Made by a program: the position numbers and the translations under genes. The notes under the pieces are model-generated. The model did not search any database, was not told the DNA's origin, and saw nothing but the letters and a program-made list of their open reading frames with translations. DNA of 36,448 nt, taken from NCBI RefSeq assembly GCF_002285265.1, contig NZ_NSJB01000016.1, positions 1 through 36,448 on the forward strand, in the 5' to 3' direction. Positions 11,578 to 29,515 of this stretch are shown piece by piece; position 1 is the first letter of the stretch, and every line of letters begins with the position of its first letter. The DNA comes from Vandammella animalimorsus. GTDB taxonomy: Bacteria > Pseudomonadota > Gammaproteobacteria > Burkholderiales > Burkholderiaceae_C.

Positions 11578-11604
11578 GGGCACTCCTTGTCAGGCAAGGT
11601 CTGC

Positions 11605-11712
11605 ACGAATCTCGGCATCGTGCGCATCGGCCGATTGGCGCGAGTCTGCTGCCTCGCAAAGCCCATCCAAAACCGCTGTTTGCTCATTCGCGCCGAGATT
11701 GTGAACAGGCGC
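11605..11712. repeat. Degenerate copy of the palindromic intergenic element
   Basis: The right half matches the element at 18331-18491. CCCATCCAAAACCGCTGTTT then CGCGCCGAGATTGTGAACAGGC here corresponds to CCCATCCCAAACCGCTTCTT then CGCACTGAGATTTTGAACAGG there. AATCTCGGC at 11608-11616 mirrors GCCGAGATT at 11692-11700, so the palindromic layout survives. The outermost left end is not recognisable. It lies between the binding-protein gene and the permease gene of the dipeptide-type operon. Confidence 0.7.
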
Positions 11713-18308: not shown

Positions 18309-18330
18309 GGGCATCTCCTTTTTTTTCTTA

Positions 18331-18491
18331 GAACCTGTTCAAAATTTCTGCGCGGTGTGCAATCAAGCGGATTTGGGCGGCCTGCCGCGTTGCAAAGCCT
18401 CGCCATAGCCCCAGCTATGGCTGCGTTTTGCGCCTTGCAGCCCATCCCAAACCGCTTCTTGCCCACTCGCACTGAGATTTTGAACAGGTTC
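18331..18491. mobile_element. 161-bp palindromic MITE-like element between two permease genes
   Basis: The two ends are inverted repeats: GAACCTGTTCAAAAT at 18331-18345 is the exact complement of 18477-18491, and similarity continues to about 21 of 24 bases. Further in, CAAGCGGATTTGGG mirrors CCCAAACCGCTT on the other side. The centre is a perfect CCATAGC/GCTATGG stem (18403-18409, 18414-18420) with a 4-base loop. The bases TTA flank it on both sides (18328-18330 and 18492-18494), like a 3-bp target duplication. It encodes nothing. Related, more degraded copies are at 29338-29515 and 11605-11712. The layout suggests a miniature inverted-repeat element mobilised in trans by an unseen IS, or a large REP/BIME-like structure. 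Confidence 0.75.
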
Positions 18492-18511
18492 TTATCCTGG
18501 GTGCATTGCAA

Positions 18512-26360: not shown

Positions 26361-26413
26361 GCCCCGCTGGCTGTTCAGACGGTTCAAAGTTCCAGCGCGA
26401 GGAGCCAGTTGGC

Positions 26414-26947
26414 ATGGGCAGCAAGGCGTACACCGCAGCCATGGCCTGGGCGGGCAGCACTGCAGGCCGGCCAGCCTGGCCGTGCTGCCCTTCGCGCCTG
26501 TCACTGACGCCGCTGAAGCCGCGCCGCCAGCGCGGCTTCACGCTGATGGAGATTTTGGTGGTGGCCACCATCATCGCTGTCGGCGCGGCGGTGATGGTGT
26601 TGGCCTGGCCGGACAGCGGGCAGCGCGCGCTCGAGCGCGAGGGCGACCGCCTGGCGGCGTTGCTGGAGTCGGCGCGGCTGCACTCGCGCGCCAGCGGCCA
26701 TGCGGTGCATTGGCGCCCCACGCCCGAAGGCTTTGTGTTCGAGGGGCGCATCCCGCATTTGCTGCAAGACCTGCCCACGCGCTGGGAGCAGCCGGGCGTA
26801 GTGGCCCAGCCCGTGCAGCCGGTGCTGCTGGGGCCCGAGCCCATTCTCACGCCCACGGCCATCACGCTCAGCCTGCCGGATCAGCCGGCGTTGCGCGTGC
26901 AGGTGGTCAGCGATGGTCTGGCGCCGTTCGAGGTGCGCGTGCCATGA
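26414..26947 (+). CDS. gspH: Type II secretion system minor pseudopilin GspH
   Basis: A 177-residue minor pseudopilin. The prepilin site RRQRG/FTLMEILVVATII lies at Gly41 if translation starts at 26414, making an unusually long leader; starting at the ATG at 26441 gives Gly32. GAGGAG sits 10 bases before 26414. The body has DRLAALLESARLHSRASGHAV and a late beta-rich part, as in GspH. It caps the pseudopilus with GspI, J and K. It overlaps gspI by four bases. Confidence 0.9.
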   Translation: MGSKAYTAAMAWAGSTAGRPAWPCCPSRLSLTPLKPRRQRGFTLMEILVVATIIAVGAAVMVLAWPDSGQRALEREGDRLAALLESARLHSRASGHAVHWRPTPEGFVFEGRIPHLLQDLPTRWEQPGVVAQPVQPVLLGPEPILTPTAITLSLPDQPALRVQVVSDGLAPFEVRVP

Positions 26948-29337: not shown

Positions 29338-29515
29338 GAGCCGCTGTTCAACATCTTTGCACGGCGGTTTCCGGATTGCGGATTGGGCCGATCCGCTTGC
29401 GCTGCAAAGCCTCGCCACAGCGTTGGCCATGGCTGCGTGATCGGCGCAATGTGTCGCCTTGCACCCATGCCCAACCGCTTCTTGCCCAGTTGCGCCGAGC
29501 GGTTGAGCAGGATTT
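29338..29515. repeat. Second, degenerate copy of the palindromic element
   Basis: The left end GAGCCGCTGTTCAACATC resembles GAACCTGTTCAAAATTTC of the copy at 18331. The middle CTGCAAAGCCTCGCCACAGC and the right part CCCAACCGCTTCTTGCCCAG followed by a degenerate TTGAGCAGGATTT end also align. The apical stem is imperfect (CCACAGC/GCCATGG). It fills most of the 297-base gap between gspK and the next gene; the remainder, 29516-29634, shows nothing further. Confidence 0.7.

Follow-up and report, generated by a model that had tools for sequence, protein, structure and literature searches.

MITEs are usually regarded as dead fragments of a single insertion sequence (IS). Among other small palindromic repeats of bacteria, REPINs are mobilised by RAYT, and ERIC elements have a conserved central palindrome. 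The IS5-family ISs that duplicate TNA on insertion form the IS1031-type subgroup. REP/BIME repeats are not known to make a target duplication. Their units are 20-40 bp long and carry a GTAG or CGTC tag (PMC3733652).

Here we describe a 161-bp element from Vandammella animalimorsus, which lies within a window of 36,448 nucleotides, the whole stretch of DNA analysed. In its ends and its target the element resembles the MITEs of IS5-family ISs, and its centre is a hairpin core of ∼50 nt that is found beneath the ends of other transposases. We consider it probable that this core, selected in its folded form, has long been carried through the Proteobacteria by MITEs whose ends have been swapped between transposase families that are unrelated, including at least IS5 and IS630.

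The element and its insertion site

The element and its parts are as follows.

18331..18491, plus strand (set by the orientation of the core): MITE of 161 bp, with ends GAACCTGTTC...GAACAGGTTC
18328..18330, no strand: left copy of the 3-bp target duplication TTA, which is a single TTA at the empty site of G205
18492..18494, no strand: right copy of the 3-bp target duplication TTA, likewise single at the empty site of G205
18331..18345, plus strand: left terminal inverted repeat, a perfect 15 bp, common to the IS5-family IS of relatives
18477..18491, minus strand: right terminal inverted repeat, which pairs with the left 15-bp end
18387..18437, plus strand: hairpin core (element positions 57-107), common to MITEs with other ends
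18385-18441: match of model R1 to the window core, 73.8 bits
18402..18421, plus strand: apical 8-bp stem with a 4-base loop, from folding and the core alignment

The coordinates, the perfect 15-bp outer ends and the TTA on both sides agree with the first-pass annotation of this DNA. The element is an imperfect palindrome, in which 90 of 161 positions equal the reverse complement, whereas 2000 random windows of the same contig average 45.4 and reach at most 74. As that annotation had also proposed, the whole unit can fold as one hairpin, with energies of -48.8 kcal/mol as DNA (z -8.2) and -88.2 kcal/mol as RNA (z -9.5) for the element strand, and in neither case did any of 200 shuffles fold as well. 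The 4-base apical loop (CCCA) stands as described, whereas the stem, GCCATAGC/GCTATGGC, has 8 bp and not the 7 bp originally given. Neither the element nor the cores of 20 further loci scored above the curated threshold of any Rfam family; the best sub-threshold candidate on the element, the microRNA model mir-1781, was reached via the terminal repeats with 25.9 bits against a required 68, and a known RNA family was rejected.

The element does split an ABC permease pair, both neighbours being BPD_transp_1 permeases on the minus strand, and an ABC ATPase with a TOBE_2 domain lies upstream of the pair in the same direction. The start codon of the second permease is only 16 bases away from the element, and a transcript across both permeases would therefore carry the hairpin. 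The earlier view that the element is gene-free also holds, because the reading frames that overlap it run beyond it rather than staying inside, and we take them as chance. With terminal inverted repeats, no coding capacity and a length under ∼500 bp, the element has the defining properties of a MITE.

Copies in the host genome and the empty site

A search of the host genome (3.1 Mb in 22 contigs) with the element found 70 matches, both strands counted, and one with model R1 found 46 at E ≤0.1, one of which is the second strand of another. Related copies occupy about 45 dispersed places. We fetched 30 host copies, of which 22 align end to end; the other eight were excluded from the duplication count. 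Identical 3-bp flanks occur at 14 of the 22 full-ended copies, and 13 of these are TNA, as the first-pass annotation would have led one to expect. When flanks were shuffled 10,000 times, the mean was 4.4 identical and the maximum 13. The remaining eight full-ended copies have flanks that do not match exactly, such as CTA/TTA, TAA/TGA and TTA/TTG.

For the window copy, to which the empty-site comparison applies, a relative of the same genus (G205) has the site with a single TTA and without the element, between flanks that match at 91-94%. The element is also absent from the site in G203, where the flanks match at only 66-72%. In four of ten same-genus genomes, the host being one of the ten, the window element as query gave no match at E ≤1e-20.

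One host locus (L367 1227-2004; G000:C16:242226-243003) contains ∼4.7 head-to-tail copies of a 165-bp member, with the units of the array joined through TGA and with variant ends GAGCTTGGTCAAAG.

Degraded relatives of the element also lie within the window. Two had been reported previously, both between genes, and we find these and a third:

29378..29511, plus strand: degraded relative, 72% over element positions 37-158, with an R1 match of 20.3 bits at 29397-29455
11630..11709 (approximate), plus strand: degraded relative, its right half 84% over 50 bp
26409..26451, minus strand: degraded fragment, 81% over 43 bp (element positions 78-120)

None of the three overlaps a called gene, as judged by a home-made gene caller that missed some genes. 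The relic at 11590-11710 starts like a C-type end (TCTGCACGAATC) and finishes like an A-type end (GTGAACAGG), and is perhaps a mixed-end element.

Insertion sequences with the same tips

A full IS with matching ends is present in relatives of the same genus. This 848-bp IS5-family IS has the same tips as the element (15-19 bp; about 15-20). Three copies are flanked by duplications (L188 TAA/TAA, L206 TCA/TCA, L190 TAA/TAA), and two more have none, one with TAA/TTA flanks (L201) and one cut by a contig end (L209). These ISs combine a 3-bp TNA duplication with a DDE_Tnp_1 transposase, as in the IS1031-type subgroup. One genome (G188) holds both the 848-bp IS and 70 R1 matches. A search of the host draft with PF01609 gave no match, and the autonomous IS was not found there. 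On an Acidovorax plasmid, the A-type end also matches an IS at its left end, which we take to be a remnant.

The copies, flanks, empty site and ISs of relatives support the earlier suggestion of non-autonomous transposition with a 3-bp duplication and support, at the level of sequence, identification of the window element as a MITE that would be moved in trans by an IS5-family transposase duplicating TNA. The other possibility raised at that stage, a REP/BIME-like chromosomal repeat, is rejected on the 161-bp length, the terminal repeats and the 3-bp duplications. We therefore class the element as a MITE rather than a REP/BIME because of its dispersed copies, TNA duplications, empty site and IS5-family ISs with the same tips.

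A core common to MITEs with other ends

When the element was compared with 200 genomes of the family, 80 gave matches, and among the matches listed these covered mostly its middle (e.g. 42-123, 57-107). The 28 that we read are palindromes of similar length, most with other ends. A scan of named genomes with a core pattern gave at least 120 stretches, holding 126 core occurrences (the listed set). Inverted repeats surround 111 of these 126, some of them inside the element, and outer inverted repeats spanning at least 139 bp surround 98. Of the 15 occurrences without repeats, 12 have a stretch end no more than 150 bp away and three (L114, L121 and L160) do not. The right arm was recognised in 113 of the 126. 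The matches listed come from Acidovorax, Comamonas, Variovorax, Ramlibacter, Massilia, Castellaniella, Cupriavidus and Azonexus, with one A-type match (L102) among those from named genomes. They also include three stretches from metagenome bins, two from a single bin assigned to Desulfovibrionaceae and one from a bin assigned to Bacteroidetes, and these may reflect errors of binning.

Across the phylum, 35 of 398 genomes match model R1 at E ≤0.001, other classes included, and 363 do not. At 23 of 29 phylum loci (L241-L269) the core forms the centre of outer inverted repeats agreeing at 14 or more of 18 positions, compared with 8 of 232 control points. The core string matched six plasmid records and, among phages, two stretches of 25 bases at E 0.3. 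Among the ∼160-bp elements that share a hairpin core of ∼50 nt, a superfamily present throughout Burkholderiales and reaching other classes of Proteobacteria, the window element is an ordinary member.

Two further observations concern the distribution of the core. In a collection of viral contigs, the exact core pattern is present in only two stretches (L371, L372). At L245 1356-1454 (genome G213), a fluoride riboswitch (Rfam, 44.2 bits) adjoins a core MITE.

Ends that match unrelated transposases

By their ends, 97 of the 126 listed occurrences fall into 16 types, window type included, which rest on hand-chosen representatives and on the left end; 14 have other ends and 15 none. Single-linkage clustering of the 98 occurrences with outer repeats gave 13 clusters, one of which holds 70. 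The ends appear to fit different transposases, IS5-family for those with TNA, YTAR or TA-like flanks and IS630-like for those with CTAG. Eight end types, with 24 of the 126 listed occurrences, start with CTAGT, where CTAG includes the TA target.

ISs of the IS630 family (PF13358) with CTAGTGT ends were found at four loci (L350, L351, L358 and L369). In one genome (G567), the 1194-bp IS630-family IS L369 and the core MITE of L250, which is 167 bp long with CTAG, share their first 19 bases, CTAGTGTGGTGTTTCAGAA. I-type ends match L369 and resemble L350. The first letters of L358 agree with the H type at 21 of 24 positions, and L358 lies in a genome (G114) with no R1 match. The partner of the B type is an IS5-family IS with CTAG on both sides (L208). 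Types A, B and I thus have partner ISs and type H a similar one, and we infer partner transposases for the remaining types. For the largest type, D (26 of the 126 listed occurrences), a partner IS was not found, and when D, B, H and I ends were compared with plasmids, no transposase was named under the matches themselves.

The PF13358 search covered ten genomes, nine that bear the core and one not known to carry it (G241). Matches were obtained in three (G567, G128 and G483), with IS ends that fit the core MITE only in G567; in G483 and G128 they differ from the ends of the core element read there. The other seven gave no PF13358 match, including G122 and G571, whose MITEs begin with CTAGT and may be orphans.

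Several end types also show identical flanks, counted without a control: 5 of 10 for B (4 bp), 6 of 13 for C (2 bp), 8 of 11 for E (3 bp), and, at 3 bp, 4 of 6 for A2 and 4 of 4 for A3. The D-type count of 0 of 25 is uninformative because the D string includes target letters.

Core-region identity within an end type across genomes averages 0.854 (95 occurrences used). Four pairs of IS5-like and IS630-like elements in the same genome have an identity of 0.676, against 0.655 for such pairs across genomes. Same-genome pairs are hardly more alike than cross-genome pairs, so recent local swapping of ends is not supported and end replacement between transposase classes looks old. Two C/O pairs in one genome reach 0.987.

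Fold, covariation and length

Alignment A1 comprises 88 sequences, 85 hand-chosen from 105 distinct pattern cores plus three host copies, and leaves out some broken right arms. RNAalifold alone predicts only six pairs for A1, and the structure tested on it was drawn by hand from single-sequence folds. By the design of the pattern, only two pairs are free to vary on the left, and both exchange whole pairs, with two-sided changes in 42 and 33 sequences; the cell count was reached by 0 of 500 shuffles. Alignment A2 contains 51 R1 matches from 47 hand-chosen loci, most of its members pattern-free. Here two-sided compensatory changes occur at all 15 core pairs, and the number of cells is 112, compared with 28.1 after shuffling (sd 3.7; 0 of 500 as high) and at most 23 for slid versions of the structure, in an alignment that was fitted to the R1 model and so leans towards its structure.

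Unpaired letters are kept as well. Among the 29 phylum loci, GCGTTG precedes the stem at 21 and CGCCTTG follows it at 22, with both present at 20, and they are kept even where both stems differ. Under IS5-like and IS630-like ends alike, paired and unpaired letters of the core are retained. That the letters retained on either side are unequal speaks against one arm simply being corrected by the other.

The length of the elements is also nearly constant. In the 99 of 126 listed occurrences where both ends could be placed, the span averages 162.5 bp (sd 11.4, range 96-245), with some of the end strings including 1-3 target letters. Type medians are 159-167 bp for the span, 81-84 bp from the left end to the core centre and 78-84 bp from the right, J excepted throughout. 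A second, stricter search found a good outer repeat at 21 of the 29 phylum loci; 14 spans are 160-167 bp and seven are shorter, in some of which the program took an inner repeat.

The compensatory stem changes and the unequal unpaired letters kept on the two sides would also suit a signal in single-stranded DNA or in RNA that is linked to the element's replication or transcription, a reading that we regard as rather unlikely. It could draw on a strand imbalance in genome G152, whose contig C1 has 113 core matches: the 74 of these listed divide into 51 plus-strand and 23 minus-strand matches, and among the matches listed between 1.42 and 3.06 Mb there are 32 plus and 5 minus. Read as a replication-strand bias, however, the imbalance does not resolve into two replichores, and the skew over 20 stretches shows no clear origin or terminus.

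Decay of resident copies and the role of the core

We measured divergence of host copies from the consensus of all 30, separating the 16 nearest to the query from the 14 most diverged; since similarity was the means of finding these copies, the counts may be biased. In the 16 nearest copies, mismatches number 24/813 in the core, 53/398 in the left arm, 18/336 in the right arm and 11/256 and 9/256 in the ends, and the core is conserved about as well as the ends. In the 14 most diverged copies, the counts are 143/704 in the core, 68/346 in the left arm, 34/290 in the right arm, 41/212 in the left end and 28/224 in the right end, so the right arm is less diverged than the core. In old copies the core has decayed at the same pace as the left arm, and resident copies, in this one genome, are thus not protected for the core. 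Conservation of the core across end types would consequently have to act on the moving lineages.

That young host copies keep the core no better than the ends is what one would expect of an ordinary IS-derived MITE, an internally deleted IS5-family copy whose common core reflects ancestry without function, and the ends and duplications do match an IS5-family IS. The match to the IS copies is limited, however, to the last 15-20 bp, with nothing further better than E about 0.08; model R1 found nothing at E ≤1 in the 60 transposase loci examined (193,290 bases); and the core letters, paired and unpaired, persist under both IS5-like and IS630-like ends. We consider this origin distinctly unlikely.

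Alternatively, the core could serve the host as a terminator, mRNA stabiliser or protein-binding site, with resident copies being kept, as proposed for REP/BIME. The hairpin is strong, and in 10 of 30 host copies (L003, L004, L005, L007, L010, L013, L014, L017, L021 and L025) the neighbouring gene has as its stop codon precisely the TNA that adjoins the element, against an expectation of 12-15% drawn from the window with a rough gene caller. The decay of the core in old copies argues against such a role, as does its orientation, which is even relative to tandem neighbours (seven same, six opposite); six further copies are convergent, three divergent, three inside called frames and five unresolved, all 30 being judged with the home-made gene caller. 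No T run follows the element. Given the core loss in old copies and the even orientation, a host function is not favoured and appears very unlikely.

The best explanation, and one that we hold to be reasonably likely, is that exchangeable ends are mounted on a conserved fold-back chassis whose core aids propagation in cis. A transposase of the IS5 family duplicating TNA would move the window MITE in trans, while across the superfamily the fold-back MITEs of ∼160 bp would keep one hairpin core of ∼50 nt at their centre. In cis, this core might work through a cruciform, through a single-strand hairpin or through a common host protein that binds it, so that the ends of a 160-bp element could meet with the help of folded DNA or of that protein. 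Whichever transposase is at work, the core would thereby turn so short an element into a good substrate for pairing of the ends or for replication, and replacement of the ends would be rare and old.

Comparison with known systems

Our literature searches, with most subscription journals outside them, found no report of one core under the ends of unrelated transposases, and nine papers containing pieces of the core string have titles without bearing on such a core. A genome paper on Polaromonas JS666, cited for MITEs, could describe a member of the superfamily. As far as this search goes, the superfamily is new and the window element is not.

If the proposed scheme is true, the lineage is a parasite that switches transposases, its core raising propagation whatever the enzyme, and some MITEs are lineages of long standing in their own right, one part of which has a function that does not depend on the enzyme moving them. 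The question of why few small elements multiply, and most deleted ISs do not, is thereby made testable.

Correia/NEMIS, ERIC, RUP and QMITE, described in part in PMC10969869, are bacterial fold-back MITEs like the window element. REP/BIME and REPINs resemble it as intergenic imperfect palindromes in many copies, and differ from it in that the window element has 161 bp, terminal inverted repeats and a target duplication. MITEs of the IS630 family with CTAG/TA ends include members of the superfamily that have the same core and nearly the same length, whereas the ends of the window element are of IS5 type and its target is TNA. Closest are the IS5-family TNA ISs and their MITEs, which it resembles in its tips, 3-bp TNA duplication, non-coding interior and dispersal. 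Its interior has no counterpart in the IS5-family ISs compared, and, in contrast to the MITEs of those ISs, its core is found also in MITEs that bear the ends of other transposases.
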